From IMG/VR virus record IMGVR_UViG_3300020439_000046, positions 1-30,048 of that record: a stretch of 30,048 bases of DNA, one strand, 5' to 3'. Numbering within the stretch: the stretch's first letter is position 1; the number at the start of each line of letters is the position of its first letter. The notes beneath the pieces were generated by a model, which did not search any database, was not told where the DNA came from, and saw only the letters and a program-made list of their open reading frames with translations. This document shows positions 1 through 30,048 of this stretch, one piece after another. The translations under genes were made by a program, and so were the position numbers. The stretch is from a virus.

Positions 1-3000
1 GATTGTAATAGTTCCAGAAGTTCCAGGATCTCTGTCATCACCATAGTATCCGAAGACCCTGTTGAATGTCTCAACACCAGAACCAGCAAAGGTGAAGTCA
101 TCGAATGGACCACCAATTTCAGTTGCAGGTGTGAATCTTTCATCAGCACCGACTTCATAAACACCATCATAATCATCAGGAACATCAGTTCTGATACCAA
201 CAATGTAGATAGTACCAGAGGTATTGATAGGAGCATTGGTACGACCAATAGCCTTTCCACTGAGTAGGATTGGACCTTCATTACCAGGATAATCAGGTAG
301 ATATCTGGTAGTAACGATACCTGGACCTGTTCCATCTTCGTTGAGGCCACCACCAGGCGAGAATGTAAATCCAGTCTCGATACCGATATTTCTGTCGATA
401 CCGTAGTGTGGAGTAAAGTCGATATCTGGGTGGTTGAGTTCCCCAGATAGTCTGAGAGTTGCCTTGAGAGTTTCTGCAGCAAATCTGCGTCTCTCGGTAA
501 TTCTCGTTCCATCGAAGATGTGTAGATAAGTACCTTCTGGTGGATCTCCACTGAATTTCTCTGTGGAGTAACCTGTAATGGTTGTGATACCAGAAGCAGG
601 AGGAATGATGATCCTTCTGTATGTGGTAAATCCAACAGCATCGGTCTTGCTGAGAGTAATGGATCCAGAACCAATGAAGTCCTTGGTAACACTCTCGCTT
701 CCAATACCAGAAACTTCGTAGAGAACTGTATTCTCTGGAGTCTGAGCAATGTACTTCTCTGGAGAAGTAGTACCGACAAACTCGAATAGTGTGGTGTTGC
801 TGCTGGCAACGGCAACTCTCTCGACACCAATTCCAGTAACAACAAGTGTACCAGAACCATTGAATTTTGGAATCCACTGAGTGACAGCAAGTGGACTTGC
901 ATCGACAAGATGTGGACCAATTCCAAATGGGTAACGAGTAGGTTCGTTGGTCTCCGAGTTGACCCAACCATAATCGATGTATCCTTTTCCAATGTTGGAT
1001 TGATGACTGAATCCTGTGTAATGTGGATACAGATATTGATCGTAGGCTGGACCACCAACTGTGCTGTCCCCAACTTGACCAAAGTCCTCAGAGTTAACAG
1101 TATTACTGAGGTCAACAGAGTATACATCTGTCTTATCAAAGGATGGTAGTACACTAACACCACCAGATCCTTGGTCGTATGTTAGACCATTGTTACTGAA
1201 GAGTACATCTTGGTCATATCTGTTAGTCTCATCATCAAATGTCTCAGTACCGACTGCCTGACCTTGAACTCCGAGGTCGAATCCAAATCCTGGATCTCCA
1301 TCGATTTCACCCCAGTTCTCATCAACAGGACCGTAGAAGATGGAAGACTCATTGTAAGAATCAGTGTTCTTCTCACTGGTAGCTGCACCAACAATAGTGA
1401 TGAGACCACCAAGTTGATCATCTGGAAGATCAATAATTCTTGCATAAGTCTGACCAGGAGCTCTTCCTGTTCTGAGTGTTGCAATACCACTTGCAAATGG
1501 AGCAGGACTGAAGACCTGATCAGCAGTACCACCAAGATAGGAGTAATCTCCTTGTAGGTATGCCTTAGTGACAGATTCACTAAGACCACCGATTGTGAAG
1601 AGACTACCAGAACCAATCTCAGTTGCAGGAGTAATGGATTCTCCACCAACACCACTGAGTGTAAATTCTCCTTCCTCACCAAATACTGTGTGTTGAGGAG
1701 CCTGACTGAACCAGTTGTAACCAAAGATATTGATTCCAGCCTTGTAGGTAGCAATACCAGTGATACCCGAAGACTCGTAATCGTATGCTCCGACAGCAGA
1801 AACATCGTCGGAAAGACGAATGGTAAGGATACCAAGAGTTCCACCTGTTTGAACAACAAGTGAAGTATCTCCTTCCGATAGAGAATCGATATTTGGATAG
1901 TGTTCTCCACCCAGTTGAACGTAGTTGAACTCTCCGAGGAGATATCCCCAGTTCTCCGCAACCTTCGGTATTGTCTCGTCGTTTGTGGCGATCGGACCAA
2001 AATCTTCCGATACTTGAGTTGGAGGAATAACAGTAATGAGACCCCAATCGTATTCCTCTGTTGCAGCCTCTCCAGTTGCAGATACCCAAGAAGGAATGAA
2101 TAGAGTTCTATCAGGTAACAATCCTCCAGTGAAGTTGAAGAGATTTGTATTCTCTTCACTCTTAACAGACTGTAGATTGGTGTATCCACCAGAGATATTA
2201 AACAGTACAGTATTGGATTTATCTCCACTACCAGTAACAATACTGATGTCAGATACAGATCCAGTAAGTCTGACAGTAAGTTTGCGTTCTCCAGCCTGAG
2301 AAACAATACTTTCATTAGCCGATCCAGTCTGATTAAACAGAACTGCATTATCAACTGTTGCAGGAGTAAAGGATTCTGTTGCAGCTCCAGAGACTGTAAG
2401 TTTGTCTCCAACGCCGAATACTGTACTTTGTGGTGCCTGACTGAAGAAGTTGGTTCCAGAGAACGTTGCTGTACCAGATCCAGAGTATGCAAATCCAAAC
2501 TCTGGGGCTTCCGCAGCAGCATACTTGAAGAGACTTCCAGTACCCTCGTATGCATATGGGAAAGCTTCTTGAGCACCAACCCCAGTTGCTTGATACTGAT
2601 GTAGGAAGAGTCCGCCACCAAGTTTCCTTTCGAGTACTCCTCTATCTTCATTTTCGATAGGAACAGTAGGAGTTGTTCTTACCGAGTATTCAATAGAAGA
2701 TACTCCCCAATGATCAAAAGAGAAACTATTAGATGCATTGGGTTGTCTAAGTCTATAGAAATAATATCCTTTATTGGATGCACTTAGTGGTACTTCTACT
2801 TCTGTTAATTGATCTAGATTATCATCATCCCATGCACCAACAGTAGCAACGGAAACCCAAGCAGATCCCGTCCATCTATCTAAGTAAAGGGATTCTGCGG
2901 TGTTATCTGGTCTTTCTCCACCATTAGACCAATTACCCCTAATTACCTTAAACTTGATAGAGTCTGAATACTCGGTATTAAATCTCCACCAGAAATATCT

Positions 3001-3990
3001 TTCTCCTCCATCAGATCCAAACTTAAAGTGATCTCCAATGGCAAATCCACCATTGCTACCAGATCCAGTACCATTAGAAGCAACGAATACGTCACTTGCA
3101 TTGTAATCGTAAGTAGCGGTAGCAAGTGTAGGTGCGTCTAGAACTGTTGGGGTATCAACAGTAATAACTCTGGTCGTAACGGAGAGTAGACCAAAGTCTT
3201 CGGAAGTAAGTTGATCAGAATCACTAAAGGATCTATCCTTAAGTTTAGTCTTGATTCTGTCAAAGGTAAGGTCATCATTATCAGAGAACTTGCCACCGAA
3301 TTGAGCGGAGACAAATCCGTTGTCCTCCAGATCGAAGATAGCATCGACTGGACGAGCATAATTTTTAATAAGGGTATCAACACTTCTGCCTTTAACCTTG
3401 GCAGAGTTCTTGATAATTGGAATATAAGCGTCTTGATACGGCGTGGTCGTCGTCCCACTAAGTGTGAGAGATCCAGTTGCGGACCACGGATATACGTTAA
3501 ATTCTGCTGTAGCTGCACTGGCAGTATTGAGGAGTGTGCCAGATCCGCTGTAATTTCCTTTTGTGAATTTGAGAGTATGGGTTCCCTGTAGGGAGGTGAG
3601 AACTGGTCCTGCCGCTCCCAAGTCTGGGATAACAAGTCTTTCCAGACCGCTACCCATTTCATGTAATGTACCAGCACCGATAAATCGTTTAACTGGATTT
3701 GTTAATGCCTGAGCATTAATATCGAATAGTCCGTTACCAATAGATCCAATAACAGCGGCAACAGCTTCTCCACCGCTTAGATTTCCAATGGAACCAAATG
3801 GTACAATATCTCCTAATGTTGTAATTAATCCCCAATAATTTGGATTGAAGTTATCTGGGCCCGTCTCGTCAATAGGGGTTGACGTAATATTTCCATAGTC
3901 AAGCGACTGTCCCACCGATGCGGTGATATCACCGTTATCGATAGGAACAAAAACATCTACTTTTGTTGAGTCGTAGACGAAGGTCGCCAT
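1..3990 (-). CDS. Giant virion structural protein, 3' end outside window (at least 1330 aa)
   Basis: The frame is open from ATG at 3988-3990 to position 1: I read all 1330 codons and found no stop. The stop lies beyond the left edge. GGAG at 4003-4006 is a ribosome site 12 bases before the ATG (MATFVYDSTKVDVFVPIDNG). Features seen: recurring (E/D)-(D/N)-(F/W)-G turns such as LTSEDFGLLS (residues 261-270), EEYDWG, SEDFG and AENWG; an aromatic-rich, probably beta-sandwich segment at about residues 311-458 (RYFWWRF, YLDRWTGSAWVSV, GYYFYRLRQPN); then imperfect repeats of about 35-45 residues built on 'LF..(S/T)G...ES'. SQAPQ(S/H)TVFG occurs twice 240 residues apart, and TPAT three times. There is no signal peptide or membrane segment. 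The repeats and the late context fit a large cyanophage tail fibre or baseplate appendage protein; receptor binding is inference. It follows a terminator and a late promoter, so it may start a new late unit. Confidence 0.87.
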   Translation of the reverse strand, partial: MATFVYDSTKVDVFVPIDNGDITASVGQSLDYGNITSTPIDETGPDNFNPNYWGLITTLGDIVPFGSIGNLSGGEAVAAVIGSIGNGLFDINAQALTNPVKRFIGAGTLHEMGSGLERLVIPDLGAAGPVLTSLQGTHTLKFTKGNYSGSGTLLNTASAATAEFNVYPWSATGSLTLSGTTTTPYQDAYIPIIKNSAKVKGRSVDTLIKNYARPVDAIFDLEDNGFVSAQFGGKFSDNDDLTFDRIKTKLKDRSFSDSDQLTSEDFGLLSVTTRVITVDTPTVLDAPTLATATYDYNASDVFVASNGTGSGSNGGFAIGDHFKFGSDGGERYFWWRFNTEYSDSIKFKVIRGNWSNGGERPDNTAESLYLDRWTGSAWVSVATVGAWDDDNLDQLTEVEVPLSASNKGYYFYRLRQPNASNSFSFDHWGVSSIEYSVRTTPTVPIENEDRGVLERKLGGGLFLHQYQATGVGAQEAFPYAYEGTGSLFKYAAAEAPEFGFAYSGSGTATFSGTNFFSQAPQSTVFGVGDKLTVSGAATESFTPATVDNAVLFNQTGSANESIVSQAGERKLTVRLTGSVSDISIVTGSGDKSNTVLFNISGGYTNLQSVKSEENTNLFNFTGGLLPDRTLFIPSWVSATGEAATEEYDWGLITVIPPTQVSEDFGPIATNDETIPKVAENWGYLLGEFNYVQLGGEHYPNIDSLSEGDTSLVVQTGGTLGILTIRLSDDVSAVGAYDYESSGITGIATYKAGINIFGYNWFSQAPQHTVFGEEGEFTLSGVGGESITPATEIGSGSLFTIGGLSESVTKAYLQGDYSYLGGTADQVFSPAPFASGIATLRTGRAPGQTYARIIDLPDDQLGGLITIVGAATSEKNTDSYNESSIFYGPVDENWGEIDGDPGFGFDLGVQGQAVGTETFDDETNRYDQDVLFSNNGLTYDQGSGGVSVLPSFDKTDVYSVDLSNTVNSEDFGQVGDSTVGGPAYDQYLYPHYTGFSHQSNIGKGYIDYGWVNSETNEPTRYPFGIGPHLVDASPLAVTQWIPKFNGSGTLVVTGIGVERVAVASSNTTLFEFVGTTSPEKYIAQTPENTVLYEVSGIGSESVTKDFIGSGSITLSKTDAVGFTTYRRIIIPPASGITTITGYSTEKFSGDPPEGTYLHIFDGTRITERRRFAAETLKATLRLSGELNHPDIDFTPHYGIDRNIGIETGFTFSPGGGLNEDGTGPGIVTTRYLPDYPGNEGPILLSGKAIGRTNAPINTSGTIYIVGIRTDVPDDYDGVYEVGADERFTPATEIGGPFDDFTFAGSGVETFNRVFGYYGDDRDPGTSGTITI

Positions 3991-4013: not shown

Positions 4014-4047
4014 AAAAAAGGGTTTGCCTTAATAATAAAGCAAACCC
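4014..4047 (-). terminator. Intrinsic terminator hairpin with U-run
   Basis: On the minus strand GGGTTTGC (4040-4047) pairs perfectly with GCAAACCC (4020-4027). Three more pairs, one a T-G wobble, extend the stem to 11 bp around a loop of about 6 bases. Six T residues follow (4014-4019). It would end transcripts coming through the 335-residue gene, whose stop is 29 bases upstream. It is the only clear intrinsic terminator in the window. The plus-strand reading has no T-run after the stem, so it works in one direction. Confidence 0.87.
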
Positions 4048-4075: not shown

Positions 4076-5083
4076 TCAGTCGAGTGCGACGTTCAAGGTA
4101 ATCTTGATTTGGTCACCGTTGTTCTGAATGTTGTAAGGACCGTTTGTGAATCTCTCAGCGTACATAATTGAACTGTAGAGAGTCGCAGTGTTAAGTCCAA
4201 GAACACCGTTAGATGTAGCAGTCATAGATGGAGTTGTTGTAAACTCATCTGCGTTAGGTACATCGAATACTGTATAAACGTTAGACTCAAGAGTCGTGTT
4301 ACCAGTACCAGCGTTGATGTAAAGGATATCTCCTTTTCTAAGTCCGTGGTTAGCGAAGTTGATTCTACCGAAACTAAATGTAACCGATGGGTCGGTTGCA
4401 GCCTGGATGTTATCCACAAGTGGTTTATCAATATAAACAACTTGCAATGCTCGGTCAATACCGATAATTCTAGTTCCAGTAGCAATACCCAAGTTACCAG
4501 CAACATACTGACCAAGTGTTAGGTCATTAATAGTTACCTGAGGGTCAACAGTGAAGTAAGAGTTACCAACAACACCAATACATGGGTCAGTGTTATTACC
4601 CTTAGTTACGGTTGTTCCGATACCTACACCAGCACCATGTACAACACCCTGTACTGCAACAGGCATGTTGTTTGCTCTAGTTACATAGTAACCGTAGATG
4701 TTACCAGCAGGTCCAGTGAAGGTGAAAGTCTGTTCTGGGTAGGTTGCGGTTGTACCACTACCAACGTTCTTAATTACCCAACGGGATCCGTTAAGGAGAA
4801 TACCATACTGTTGAGTATAGTCTTGATCTGTTCTGTTATTTACACAGTTAGGATAACCTGTGTTTGCGGTAGTTCCATAACCGTTTACGTTACCGTCGAT
4901 ATATGGCTCAAAATAAGCCGTAGCGGTAGGAACATCACCCTCAGCTGGAGTGGTATTACTCGTAAAAAGTTTAAGAACTAGATTTCTAGGTGAAGTATCC
5001 TCTAGGTCTGCGACGAAGTTATTCTGAGCGATCAGATAACGCAGCGACTCAATTTCACCAATATTAGGAACTAGTAATGCCAT
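4076..5083 (-). CDS. Virion structural protein (335 aa), conserved cyanophage type
   Basis: It begins MALLVPNIGEIESLRYLIAQ and ends QIKITLNVALD, an N- and C-terminus I associate with conserved structural proteins of T4-like cyanophages; no catalytic function is known to me. The start is fixed by GAGGAG at 5092-5097, eight bases before the ATG. The chain is rich in Gly, Thr, Asn and Val, with no membrane segment. Residues about 240-265 hold NHGLRKGDILYI followed by a VYTVFDV strand, the 'HG(L/F)..GD' module also present in the gp7-like, DUF4815 and 3002-residue proteins. It is preceded by a perfect late promoter box at 5128-5135 and followed by the terminator at 4014-4047, so it could be made from its own short transcript as well as by read-through. 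Assignment as a virion protein is confident; its place in the particle is unknown. Confidence 0.88.
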   Translation of the reverse strand: MALLVPNIGEIESLRYLIAQNNFVADLEDTSPRNLVLKLFTSNTTPAEGDVPTATAYFEPYIDGNVNGYGTTANTGYPNCVNNRTDQDYTQQYGILLNGSRWVIKNVGSGTTATYPEQTFTFTGPAGNIYGYYVTRANNMPVAVQGVVHGAGVGIGTTVTKGNNTDPCIGVVGNSYFTVDPQVTINDLTLGQYVAGNLGIATGTRIIGIDRALQVVYIDKPLVDNIQAATDPSVTFSFGRINFANHGLRKGDILYINAGTGNTTLESNVYTVFDVPNADEFTTTPSMTATSNGVLGLNTATLYSSIMYAERFTNGPYNIQNNGDQIKITLNVALD

Positions 5084-25603: not shown

Positions 25604-28600
25604 TTAATATGGAGGGTTGTCATCGTGAGTTGGGAATGTATCGTCAACCGTAGTTACATCGGAATTCATTCTCTTCACGTCATAATAGAAATTATTATCA
25701 ACTGTAGTTTCTGCGATTGCAAATCTAGATTGGACAAATGTAGTGTCACCAATAGATTTGACCTTCACCATCTCATCATCAATCTTGATGATGTCATTCT
25801 TAGCAATTGAACCAATACCAGAGGTAATAGAAATACTCTGGTCACTTGGACCCAAGTTAGATCCAATACCAATACTCAGTTTTTTATTTTTAATTGGTGT
25901 CTGAATGATATTATCAATCATAATCAGAGCATTCAAATTGGGATTGGAATATCTTAGAACGTGATTGCCTGTTCCAAATCCCGTAAAGTTAAGTGGAAGT
26001 CCTGTAGGAATACCACAAAGTTTAAAGTTAAAGTCATCTACCTTATTTACATAAACCAAATCTGGCATTGTTGTGCCACCCAATTGAATTGGTGTTAGGA
26101 AAATATCATCAGTAGGTGTAGCTCCTCCAATATATGTACCTGCAATGGAAATAACATCAGTATGTGCATAACCACTTCCACCCTGAACAACTTCAACGTC
26201 AACAACATCTAAGTTGGAATCTCTAGTGATATTGAAAATAGCACCAGTTCCAGCATTATTATTTGTTGATGGAACATTAGTATACGTTGACTGAATACCT
26301 GTGCGTGTACCAGTAACTCTAGTAACAGGGAATGATAAGTCATTAGCAGGAGACGCGCCTCCCAACCAAGTACCACCAATACTTACAGTATCTCCAACAA
26401 AGTATCCATTACCACCCTTGGTTAAAACTACATTAGTAGAAAGGGTAGATCCTTGACCATCATATGTAAATTTAACTTGGAATCTAGCACCAGTACCCCT
26501 AGTGGAGATGCCTGGGATACCACCCTCAGCCATTCCAAAACCAAACACCTTAAAGGTGACGATTGGGAATCCAGATGTCAATGAAGTACCAGTAACTCCA
26601 CCCTCAGGAATTTCAACGTTATATCCATTCTCAAACATTGCACTGCCACCAACACCAGAGGTGACTGCGGTCATAATGATATCTTTTGTACCAACAATTT
26701 GATCTGTAGTACCAATACCAATACCATCTCCTCCTTGTTTGTCATAGATCAACTCTTGACCAGTTTGGAAGTTATGATTAGGTAAATTAATAATATTATT
26801 AGTTAGATCAACTACATTTGGATTAGAAGAAGCAAAGGACACTCTAAAGATAGGACTTCCTTTAGACTTCAACTTAAATTGAGTCGAACCTACAAGAGTA
26901 CCAGTTCTATCATGAGCACCATTGAATCCTGTAGAAATATCATCAATATTCAGAACTTTGTTTGTCTTATTAAGAATGTAACTCTTAATAGGTCTACCTT
27001 CTGGGAAGAATATTCTCTGAACGGTTCCATCAGTCAATGCATCATCTTCAGTAACCATAGCAAAGTTTTCTCTGGTTCCCATGTAGATTTCATTGTCAAC
27101 ATTGACAATAAGATCGACCTTTGTATCGACTGGTTTAACTGCCATGTTGGTAGACTTGGCAACACCAACACTTACTAAATCAAAAGTTACAGCATCTTTC
27201 TTAGGATCACTCTCTAGCTGGAAGTCGGAGAACTCTCTGAATCCAGATGGGTGTAAGATAGATCTTACGGATTCTTTCCAAGTATTATAATCAAGATTAC
27301 TCTTAACTGAATAAGAGAACTTCTGGTAGTAGAAGTTGTCAGATATTCTTTGACTGAAGTCATTAAGAATACCAGTTTCTAGATCATTCTTTTCAATTTT
27401 ATCTCTAGTTACTCCCAATCTAGTTTTAACACTAAACCTACTTACATATCTGACGTTACCCTTCAGTTCAGATACTTCGCCAACCAAAGTATCACCTTCT
27501 CTCAATGTACCAATAGTATCTCTGAGTCTAAGTTGACTAATCTCACCATTCCAACCATTTTCTGCAACATATCCTTCAAATTTATTTGAAGTTACTTTCT
27601 CACCAGAAAGATACTTAGCATCATCAATCAACTTCATGCTAAACTTAGCCATGTCGTTGTAGTTGACAATGTATCCTAAGGTAAAATCATCATCATATGA
27701 ACCCAAAGGAGCAGTAGTAATGCCAGGAGCATTAGCCATACTGTAAGTAACTGTAAAGTTTGCAGTGTTTACACCAGTTACAGTAAAGAAATTATAGTCG
27801 TAAAGATCGGAGTTGAAGTTCTGTTCACCAGCAGCAAAAGAATCTGGTTTTAATCTACATCCTTCAATAAACACTCTATCACCAATAGCAAAAGGTAATT
27901 CAATATCGGTAGATCCATATCCAGTTCTAATGGGAATATTGAACTGAGGATCAAGTAACAATTCAACAGTTACATCTGTACCACTATGTGTAATTTGGTC
28001 AATGTCATAACCATTGGAATTATTTGTAGTAATAATGCTCAATGGTTCGTAGAATTCAAATGCATTTGTAACAACATCAACTCTAGATACAGATCCACCA
28101 CTTACATGAGCAGCAAGTTTAGCAGTATCATTTCCACGAATCGCCAGATTTGGTGGTTGTGTGTAATTCTTACCTCCGTCAGTAACTCTGACTTCATCAA
28201 TTCTTGCAATTCCGTTTACATCTACAATTGCAGGAACATTTAGGAATGGTAATAGTGTGGGATCAGTAGGATAATCGAATCCATCTTTCACTCTCTCTAG
28301 AGTATCAATTTCACCAACTTCTTCGGAGAAGATTTTGGCAACACCATCTACACCAGACGTAGTATCAAAATCAACTACTCTAGGAAGTCTCCTATATCCC
28401 TTTCCTGGGAAGTTGACTTTAAGTTTAGCAATAGGACCAACTGCACTACGAGAACTAGTCTCATAAGTGATTGTAGAAACACCAGCCAACGATACAAACA
28501 TCTGAGGTTCAGATGGTTTGCTCTTCAGATTGAAATTAAAAGTAGTATCATCAACTTTTACGATAGTATGTTCATTATCGAGAACAATCTTATTCAGAGT

Positions 28601-30048
28601 TATATTATTTCTTCCTTTTACTTCCTTATCTGAAGAAATATTCAGTTTTCTTTCATCAGAAGGGACAACAGGAATTACCTGATAATAACATTTTCTTGGG
28701 AAATCGGTTGAAGTAGTAATTTCAACTGTAGCACCAGTATTACCAGTAACTGCATTTCTCTTGATATTAAATCCCTGATTAACATTTCCAGAGGTCTCAA
28801 TATCTTTTACAAAATCAATATCTTCAAAGAACCTAAGTTCCATGTTTCTGAGACTTACATCAGAAACATCAAATGTAACTCTATCACCTCTAACAAAATC
28901 AAATGGTGGATTTACTCTTGCTAAGTAATAGTTACCTGTAGGTACATTAGTAATGTTGACGATAGTACCACTATCAACATCCGCTTTATGTTTACAGAGT
29001 TTGATGTACTCTGGAGATTCTCTCAATACAAAATAAGTTTCATTATGAACTAATCCAGTAATGTTTGTATTATCAACATAGAAAACAACCTTATCACCTG
29101 TATTGTAACTAGTATCATTAATTTTAAAACCAGTTAGATCAGCAGTAAATGAAGTTTGATCAAAAGCAACTTTCTTAGTAGTAACTTTAGCAATAACTGG
29201 ATCAAATCTCAACTCCACGGTCTCTGTCTGAGTTGGAATAGCAGTTAACTTAATCTCATCTTTGGTTGAAAGATTATGATTTGTCTTAGTAGTAACTTGA
29301 CCAAAGTATTTCTCAGCAACAGCAGTTACTTTCGGGAAATTAGTTGCTACTGAGTGAGCTGCACCAATATTACTTGCAACACTATACCACCAAACAGCAT
29401 CAGCAGCGGTTGGGAATCCAACTGTAGATATACCAAGGTAATCATTACCAAAGTTTACTGCATAGTAGGTCTCCCCACTCTCAAGTCTTTCTGTACCAAC
29501 CCCAGAAGTTGATCCAACAGCGGTCTTAGCATATGTTAGTGATGTTCCACCAACACCCATGTGATATACAAGACTTTGACCAGTGTAGAACTTATGGTTG
29601 GGAATGTATAACTGTCTTTGTGGTACGAATCTATTTTCAATCGTTTCATTAGCCGCAGAAAGACCCAAACCAGTCAGAGAAATATCATAATGTGTTCCAG
29701 TAGATCCCATACCTACAGTAAAGGTAGGATCAAAGAAGAGCATTTGATTGGTATATGTCAAATAGGACAATTTAATGTCCTTATCTTCAACCAATTCAAA
29801 TTTATTTGGTTTTAAGAATACATTATTAGTTCCAACAGCATGTGTGATACCAATACCAACATAATATTCTCTGTTGACTCTAAATCTACCAAACTCACTA
29901 TCTACATTCAAAATAGTAAGAGTCTCAGTACCAATACCAATTACGTCACCAGCTACAAAGTCTCTAGTATCTGTAACTGAAATATATGTGGTAATGCCAG
30001 TAGCACCAACATCAGCAAGTTCAACATTTAGACCTGTTGTTCTTGTTT
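25604..30048 (-). CDS. Probable gp7-type baseplate wedge protein, 5' end outside window (at least 1480 aa)
   Basis: The frame stays open past a TTG at 29911 to the right edge (TRTTGLNVELADVGATGITT upstream), so the true start is outside. About two thirds along (27239-27340, in-window residues about 903-936), NFYYQKFSYSVKSNL, W-K and HPSGF match a T4 gp7 C-terminal stretch I recall (SYYVMKIKSNL, then W-K and HPVGFGF). The stretch before it (REGDTLVGEVSELKGNVRYV) is also comparable. gp7 organises the T4 wedge and contacts gp8 and gp10; both partners are encoded downstream here. The rest is beta-rich, with four GG-x-GY-type motifs (FPGKGYRRLPRV, VTDGGKNYTQPP, LTKGGNGYFVGD, VVQGGSGYAHTD) and HG-like modules (TNHNLSTKDEIKL, NHNFQTGQELIY). 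At 1480+ aa it exceeds T4 gp7 (1032 aa), so it would be an enlarged or fused form. Virion role is secure; gp7 identity is moderate. Confidence 0.85.
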   Translation of the reverse strand, partial: TRTTGLNVELADVGATGITTYISVTDTRDFVAGDVIGIGTETLTILNVDSEFGRFRVNREYYVGIGITHAVGTNNVFLKPNKFELVEDKDIKLSYLTYTNQMLFFDPTFTVGMGSTGTHYDISLTGLGLSAANETIENRFVPQRQLYIPNHKFYTGQSLVYHMGVGGTSLTYAKTAVGSTSGVGTERLESGETYYAVNFGNDYLGISTVGFPTAADAVWWYSVASNIGAAHSVATNFPKVTAVAEKYFGQVTTKTNHNLSTKDEIKLTAIPTQTETVELRFDPVIAKVTTKKVAFDQTSFTADLTGFKINDTSYNTGDKVVFYVDNTNITGLVHNETYFVLRESPEYIKLCKHKADVDSGTIVNITNVPTGNYYLARVNPPFDFVRGDRVTFDVSDVSLRNMELRFFEDIDFVKDIETSGNVNQGFNIKRNAVTGNTGATVEITTSTDFPRKCYYQVIPVVPSDERKLNISSDKEVKGRNNITLNKIVLDNEHTIVKVDDTTFNFNLKSKPSEPQMFVSLAGVSTITYETSSRSAVGPIAKLKVNFPGKGYRRLPRVVDFDTTSGVDGVAKIFSEEVGEIDTLERVKDGFDYPTDPTLLPFLNVPAIVDVNGIARIDEVRVTDGGKNYTQPPNLAIRGNDTAKLAAHVSGGSVSRVDVVTNAFEFYEPLSIITTNNSNGYDIDQITHSGTDVTVELLLDPQFNIPIRTGYGSTDIELPFAIGDRVFIEGCRLKPDSFAAGEQNFNSDLYDYNFFTVTGVNTANFTVTYSMANAPGITTAPLGSYDDDFTLGYIVNYNDMAKFSMKLIDDAKYLSGEKVTSNKFEGYVAENGWNGEISQLRLRDTIGTLREGDTLVGEVSELKGNVRYVSRFSVKTRLGVTRDKIEKNDLETGILNDFSQRISDNFYYQKFSYSVKSNLDYNTWKESVRSILHPSGFREFSDFQLESDPKKDAVTFDLVSVGVAKSTNMAVKPVDTKVDLIVNVDNEIYMGTRENFAMVTEDDALTDGTVQRIFFPEGRPIKSYILNKTNKVLNIDDISTGFNGAHDRTGTLVGSTQFKLKSKGSPIFRVSFASSNPNVVDLTNNIINLPNHNFQTGQELIYDKQGGDGIGIGTTDQIVGTKDIIMTAVTSGVGGSAMFENGYNVEIPEGGVTGTSLTSGFPIVTFKVFGFGMAEGGIPGISTRGTGARFQVKFTYDGQGSTLSTNVVLTKGGNGYFVGDTVSIGGTWLGGASPANDLSFPVTRVTGTRTGIQSTYTNVPSTNNNAGTGAIFNITRDSNLDVVDVEVVQGGSGYAHTDVISIAGTYIGGATPTDDIFLTPIQLGGTTMPDLVYVNKVDDFNFKLCGIPTGLPLNFTGFGTGNHVLRYSNPNLNALIMIDNIIQTPIKNKKLSIGIGSNLGPSDQSISITSGIGSIAKNDIIKIDDEMVKVKSIGDTTFVQSRFAIAETTVDNNFYYDVKRMNSDVTTVDDTFPTHDDNPPY

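Follow-up and report, generated by a model that had tools for sequence, protein, structure and literature searches.

A giant fibre-type gene at the contig edge

The window analysed here is the whole of IMG/VR virus record IMGVR_UViG_3300020439_000046 (30,048 bases), whose left edge is occupied by a single very long minus-strand gene (Table 1). In the open reading frame (ORF) listing, this gene spans 1–3990 (−) and encodes 1330 amino acids (aa) from an ATG start, with an open 3′ end. The original observation of a stop-free minus frame from ATG 3990 was thus confirmed down to base 1. Such a run has a chance of ~6e-35 at the base composition of the window, and its origin in a sequencing error is not credible because 32 further loci of the close family share the open frame. 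As judged by conservation, ATG 3990 is the correct start: a stop codon directly precedes it and the N-terminus is shared among relatives. Because the window is the entire record, the stop codon of the gene lies outside the data; in L007, a contig of 97% identity, the gene continues without a stop as far as codon 1486. Complete close relatives are 1493–1725 aa long and carry a conserved tip (...RTYVVII or ...RVYVTII) directly before the stop. Those with the same inserted domain as the window gene measure 1698–1725 aa, and therefore ~370–395 residues are missing from the window gene. By this comparison, the window holds the N-terminal ~78% of a predicted fibre-type protein of ~1,700 aa.

A tblastn search against 50,697 phage records matched 33. 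Query coverage reached 80% or more in four of them, namely S-SSM6a, two entries for S-SSM7 (53.8% identity) and Sf-FS3 (47.4%). The homology to S-SSM7 runs end to end in frame 0 (aa 1–1330 aligned, 53.8% identity), and the frame-0 translation has relatives at 29 IMG/VR viral-contig loci. Homologues therefore match frame 0 and not an alternative frame, and the proposal that the contig edge truncates a single long phage gene was borne out. The gene order is that of S-SSM7, S-SSM6a and Sf-FS3, namely gp8, the DUF4815 giant, a small gene, L-shaped fibre assembly, a structural protein, a 335-aa protein and the window gene. Homology and full synteny indicate that the window gene is the orthologue of S-SSM7 gp110 (Kyanoviridae, Lipsvirus), annotated 'hypothetical', and that the record comes from a Lipsvirus-like, T4-like marine cyanophage. 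Synteny with T4-like baseplate and tail-fibre genes supports a virion role, and the product is probably a giant virion-type tail fibre or whisker subunit. No Pfam model matched the window protein, and PDB sequence searches with whole-protein and domain profiles returned nothing significant; phrog_11522 (unknown function) was found in 11 of 12 members scanned, but not in the window's own stretch. Proteomic data are available for S-SM1 and, in the accessible portion of that source, do not cover the window-gene protein (PMC3037559). The RefSeq start of S-SSM7 gp110 (88246; L002 12001–12069) lies 69 nucleotides (nt) too far downstream of a TTG that restores the conserved N-terminus, and S-SSM6a is annotated from the TTG matching that N-terminus.

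In the predicted product, an exchangeable jelly-roll close to the N-terminus is followed by a long shaft rich in repeats and by a C-terminal tip whose conservation is seen in complete relatives. AlphaFold2 modelled aa 285–445 as a jelly-roll with a predicted local distance difference test (pLDDT) score of 79, and a Foldseek search with this domain returned reelin (6.3e-06) and CBM35 (2e-04). With Pfam PF21471 (Reelin_subrepeat-B), one relative scored 29.6 bits against a cut-off of 27 (L014), another fell below it (L015), and the window copy gave no match. The model thus points to a reelin-subrepeat or CBM6/CBM35-like, putatively carbohydrate-binding-like jelly-roll. The domain also matches a protein that in ACG-2014b and related phages bears the label 'baseplate wedge subunit' or 'hypothetical'. 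L011 has the domain, and L034 lacks it as a clean 495-nt block, the rest of the gene being 86–99% identical in 300-nt windows; such gain or loss between close phages is a candidate host-range difference. The original description of a clean beta-repeat virion protein stands in its virion part, by synteny. The beta-repeat part is carried by the sequence repeats, because the shaft (aa 445–1010) gave no usable AlphaFold2 model (mean pLDDT 25.7).

Out-of-frame stop codons are depleted across the gene family

Through synonymous codon choice, both unused forward frames are kept nearly stop-free in this gene family. Synonymous codon shuffles of the window gene gave mean longest alternative ORFs of 155 codons in frame +1 and 28 in frame +2; the observed lengths of 489 and 224 codons were reached by none of 1000 shuffles. 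Stops numbered 14 against about 30 expected in +1 and 108 against about 148 in +2, and the antisense frames were at shuffle expectation. The depletion was unchanged when shuffling was confined to local windows of 100 codons. A null model that fixes the base after each codon, and that cannot test +1, gave z values of −6.0 to −13.5 for +2 in five genes. Under the same shuffles, five other window genes and three S-SSM7 genes showed no depletion. Runs without a stop in any of the three forward frames extended to 264 codons in the window gene, 398 in S-SSM7 and 560 in S-CAM1, against a maximum of 48 in 87 control ORFs. The shorter same-strand ORFs that had been called misleading at the outset (1182–2651 and 3138–3677) are indeed not genes, but the family-wide selective absence of stops behind them had been missed: the long alternative ORFs exist because stops are selectively absent from the two other forward frames across the family. 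The +1 ORF 1182–2651 found just the three nearest copies, and the +1 and +2 translations matched the same gene in the same frame only.

Among 121 ORFs of at least 300 codons in the window and the related loci, all 34 family members took ranks 1–34, above all 87 others. The 34 include near-identical copies (for example L002/L004, L021/L022/L034 and L028/L029) and so do not all count as independent; in most composition tests, 9 or 10 representatives stood for the family. The window's own copy (L001) was excluded. A single ORF stood out among 115 in the S-SSM7 genome (z-sum −15.2, next −3.9), where the highly expressed gp23, gp18 and psbA did not deviate in both frames. The family gene of S-SCSM2R was less extreme, ranking first of 114 (z-sum −7.6, next −4.6), and no depleted ORF was found in ACG-2014b (160 kb, 66 ORFs) or the T4 fibre region (7 ORFs). 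Altogether, the comparison covered about 500 phage ORFs from outside the family.

S-CAM1 and S-CAM3 carry, in the same slot, a giant gene of only weak similarity in which the depletion is stronger. Observed stops against expected numbered 15 against 40 and 56 against 166 in S-CAM1, and 31 against 77 and 98 against 210 in S-CAM3; codons 1101–2130 of the S-CAM1 gene hold no stop in +1 and three in +2. Neighbouring genes were undepleted except for one mild +2 deviation (z −2.8). Across 39 loci of this type, three of them without a matching ORF of at least 300 codons, the z-sums of 37 family ORFs ranged from −22.8 to −3.8, and the lowest of 151 others was −3.5; separation was narrow for short fragments of 401–404 codons (−3.8 and −4.2 against −3.5). 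The S-CAM-type genes are diverged positional homologues and replicate the depletion independently. None of 721 cyanobacterial ORFs was depleted in both frames to such a degree, the lowest z-sum (−5.2) coming from one frame. A Prochlorococcus ORF (L153 11707–15171 (−), 1155 codons) was depleted in +2 stops only (72 against 107, z −7.0).

Relative to the 87 controls, T at codon position 3 was avoided where GA, AG or AA followed (odds ratios 0.24, 0.28 and 0.41, respectively) but not where AC, AT, GG or GC followed (about 0.9–1.1); the outlier besides stops was TTT (0.26). In frame +1, TGA, TAA and TAG were within the five most family-depleted of the 64 triplets. When contexts were stratified by dipeptide, 69 of 73 were lower, with a Mantel–Haenszel odds ratio of 0.23 against 0.78 for matched non-stop contexts; the odds ratio for +1 stops was 0.23 against a matched 1.50. 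This test ruled out a repeat-copy artefact. The 721 cyanobacterial ORFs showed no stop-context bias (odds ratios 0.71–1.16), and a host-like or high-expression codon context was rejected, as it was seen neither there nor in highly expressed phage genes. Both families also avoid border-crossing T/TT and A/AA (the slash marks the codon border). The observed-to-expected ratio of T/TT was 0.15 in family genes and 0.19 in S-CAM-type genes, against 0.47–0.65 in controls, and stop avoidance does not explain it.

With both frames pooled against a quintile-local null, the depletion rises from 5′ to 3′ in two families: observed-to-expected ratios by quintile were 0.90, 0.59, 0.73, 0.33 and 0.17 in one and 0.76, 0.63, 0.52, 0.08 and 0.05 in the other. 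An exception is the inserted jelly-roll, which is undepleted. Depletion correlated with position (rho −0.55 and −0.66) and, in both families, with the density of a repeat motif given by a hand-made regular expression (rho −0.21), so that motif density is weak as a driver next to position. In the complete genes read, stops in frames +1 and +2 lie close to the true stop, at distances between −11 and +68 nt. Directly behind the fibre stop and before the next gene, L012 and other complete close relatives carry a TATAAATA-like sequence, which we take to be the T4 late promoter motif; downstream polarity is therefore weaker as a driver of the depletion.

Table 1 Features of the 30,048-base window, including open stretches in the alternative frames of the fibre-type gene.
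Feature	Position	Strand	Remarks
Giant fibre-type gene, first 1330 of about 1,700 codons	1..3990	−	Cut by contig end; orthologue of S-SSM7 gp110
Conserved N-terminus, aa 1–100	3691..3990	−	Out-of-frame stop density normal
Optional jelly-roll, aa 285–445, reelin subrepeat or CBM6/35-like (from model)	2656..3138	−	Not stop-depleted
First copy of the FGYYGDD[RK]DPGTSG repeat, aa 1312–1326	13..57	−	Found again, several times over, in the C-terminal part of relatives that are complete
Frame +1 open stretch, 489 codons	1182..2651	−	Not a gene but a by-product of stop depletion
Frame +1 open stretch, 179 codons	3138..3677	−	Not a gene
Frame +1 open stretch, 387 codons	3..1163	−	Runs off the window
Frame +2 open stretch, 224 codons	293..967	−	Shuffle mean 28
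Frame +2 open stretch, 137 codons	1676..2089	−	From the ORF listing
Stretch stop-free in all three forward frames, 264 codons (968–1231)	298..1089	−	Maximum 48 in 87 control ORFs
Upstream neighbour, 335 aa, phrog_10467	4076..5083	−	Orthologue 'tail fiber rope protein' in S-SCSM2R; null stop-depletion control
DUF4815 protein, 2504 aa	6380..13894	−	Null control
Positional orthologue of S-SSM7 gene 103 ('baseplate wedge subunit gp7'), 3002 aa	15527..24535	−	Null control

In the gap that separates the 335-aa gene from the fibre gene, at 4014–4047 (−), GGGTTTGC ... GCAAACCC followed by six T resembles, by eye, an intrinsic terminator. The opposite contig edge truncates another gene (25604–30046 (−), 1480 codons, 5′-open), which corresponds by order to S-SSM7 gene 101 (3007 aa); its TTG-started form, 25604–29911 (−), shows no stop depletion.

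What may keep the unused frames open

Synonymous differences in 12 pairs made or removed a +1 stop in 0.9% of cases against 3.2% expected, and a +2 stop in 11.9% against 13.6% (4.5% against 7.6% in the last block). In the same pairs, the amino acid changes in the alternative frames had BLOSUM scores equal to random, with no conservation beyond frame-0 constraint. The DUF4815 control was null on all counts. No cross-frame high-scoring segment pair (HSP) was found among 34 genes with 5502 same-frame HSPs, nor in 17 genes of the two families, in which none of 10,784 shared 17-mers was out of phase. None of 25 close pairs had a shifted block of at least 18 nt (longest 17 nt, at 59% identity), and no silent cassette was found elsewhere in the S-SSM7 genome. 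With neither conserved alternative-frame amino acids nor cross-frame DNA, the pattern is not one of overlapping coding, nor of any frame swapping that could be detected in relatives or repeats.

The best reading, to which we give a probability of roughly 0.4, is selection for tolerating frame errors during translation. What matters would be that the wrong frames can be read through, and not what they encode. Ribosomes on a very long, repeat-rich mRNA may now and then lose frame, so that out-of-frame ribosomes would build up along it. Meeting a stop, such a ribosome would release a truncated fibre chain that retains the attachment end; where stops are absent, it would run on, and might slip back or finish at the gene's own end. 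Avoidance of T/TT and A/AA, as slippage-prone border triplets, would fit the same frame-keeping pressure, while the fitness benefit of stop-free wrong frames is a guess. Slightly more tentatively, these could be 'frame-error-proofed' giant cyanophage fibre genes, in which any forward frame is readable to the end and is maintained so by selection, wrong-frame stops being purged in proportion to the expected misframed ribosomes, and border T and A triplets with them. Several points weigh against this reading. T/TT is avoided throughout, with no gradient, and a weaker avoidance of it exists in control genes as well. Elsewhere in these phages, giant genes of 2500–3000 aa are not depleted, and aa 751–1000 of the Lipsvirus family are depleted in +1 only, the +2 depletion being non-monotonic. 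Moreover, the ambush hypothesis, as set out in the accessible parts of two sources, expects out-of-frame stops to be favoured, the reverse of what would hold here (PMC2996987, PMC5909447).

Next in rank, though unlikely, the depletion could be a by-product of another pressure on mRNA or codons, such as codon-pair preference, stop-free repeat expansion or host-like context, with no selection on stops themselves. The window gene has its own codon usage (more C at third positions) and internal repeats, its fourfold sites are somewhat more conserved than those of DUF4815 in distant pairs (observed-to-expected about 0.70–0.87 against 0.82–0.91), and T/TT avoidance goes beyond stop logic. Such a pressure is hard to reconcile with a depletion that survives local shuffles and the codon-junction-base null and affects 69 of 73 dipeptides while TAC, TAT, TGG and TGC are unavoided; nor do host genes show the context bias, or highly expressed phage genes deviate in both frames. 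Also unlikely, and ranked just behind, is tolerance of inherited frameshifts, as proposed for PE_PGRS, whereby indels or out-of-frame recombination would leave shifted fibre variants full length and so give diversity. It would suit the restriction to forward frames, the rise towards the 3′ end and the link to genes of a receptor-binding type, and the clean 495-nt block shows that modular domain gain and loss is real. The frame-swapped alleles it expects, however, were not found among HSPs, 17-mers, the 25 close pairs or S-SSM7 cassettes. The S-CAM1-type contig L094 (8001–14965) does carry +1 indels, small insertions near codons 516–527 that split the giant gene into ORFs of 516 and 1806 codons; their position in runs of G means that they could be either sequencing errors or a real frameshift. 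This was the one split gene in 36 S-CAM-type loci, and there was none in 34 Lipsvirus-type genes.

One or two overlapping protein-coding genes in +1 and +2 are very doubtful, and we rejected them for want of alternative-frame conservation. Relatives do have very long +1 ORFs (1248 codons in S-SSM7, 1264 in L029), and +1 is depleted along most of the gene. Yet the rare +1 stops interrupt at differing places in different relatives, the depletion affects the two frames simultaneously, substitutions in the alternative frames are just as radical as random ones, and the +1 translation finds near-identical copies only. An ordinary contig-edge gene with chance alternative ORFs would agree with a gene that known phages also carry and that the contig end truncates; with its alternative ORF lengths matched in none of the shuffles and the depletion family-wide, we set this aside as having almost no probability.

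Were tolerance of translational frame errors the cause, misframed translation would be frequent and costly on the fibre mRNA, the opposite of the ambush hypothesis. Out-of-frame stops are usually held to be neutral or beneficial, and their near-complete removal without alternative-protein conservation is a strong, testable signal of the way in which a gene is shaped by misframed translation or by tolerance of frameshifts. For annotation, long same-strand ORFs in such genes do not mean genes, and codon-based overlap detectors misfire; conversely, the depletion pattern can be used to find unannotated family members.

Comparison with known systems

The closest named counterparts, S-SSM7 gp110 (SSSM7_110, YP_004324163), S-SSM6a CYVG_00284 and Sf-FS3 gene 93, resemble the window gene in position, neighbours and stop depletion, with 47–54% identity over 88–92% of the window protein. 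They differ in length (1505–1552 aa) and lack the jelly-roll at aa 285–445. S-CAM1 SXBG_00232 (2130 aa) and S-CAM3 gp164 (2558 aa), both phrog_11522, occupy the slot before 'tail protein' and 'tail fiber protein' as in the window family, and share with it weak repeat homology and a stronger stop depletion. Unlike the window family, they are longer and have another N-terminal half; S-CAM1 and S-SSM7 are about 28% identical over 15% of S-CAM1. Genes 34 and 37 of the T4 long tail fibre are also giant T4-like fibre genes, but without out-of-frame stop depletion.

In an open-access (PMC) literature search, we found no report of out-of-frame stop depletion in phage, and PE_PGRS of Mycobacterium tuberculosis was the sole similar case. 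Like the fibre family, PE_PGRS proteins are long, repetitive and of surface type, and their genes are reported to be depleted in out-of-frame stops (PMC13328622). In the accessible part of that source, the depletion is ascribed mainly or largely to GC content, and frameshift tolerance is proposed (PMC13328622). Whereas the PE_PGRS depletion is thus described as GC-driven, the cyanophage gene has 41–45% GC, and its effect stays with amino acids, codon usage and codon junction fixed.

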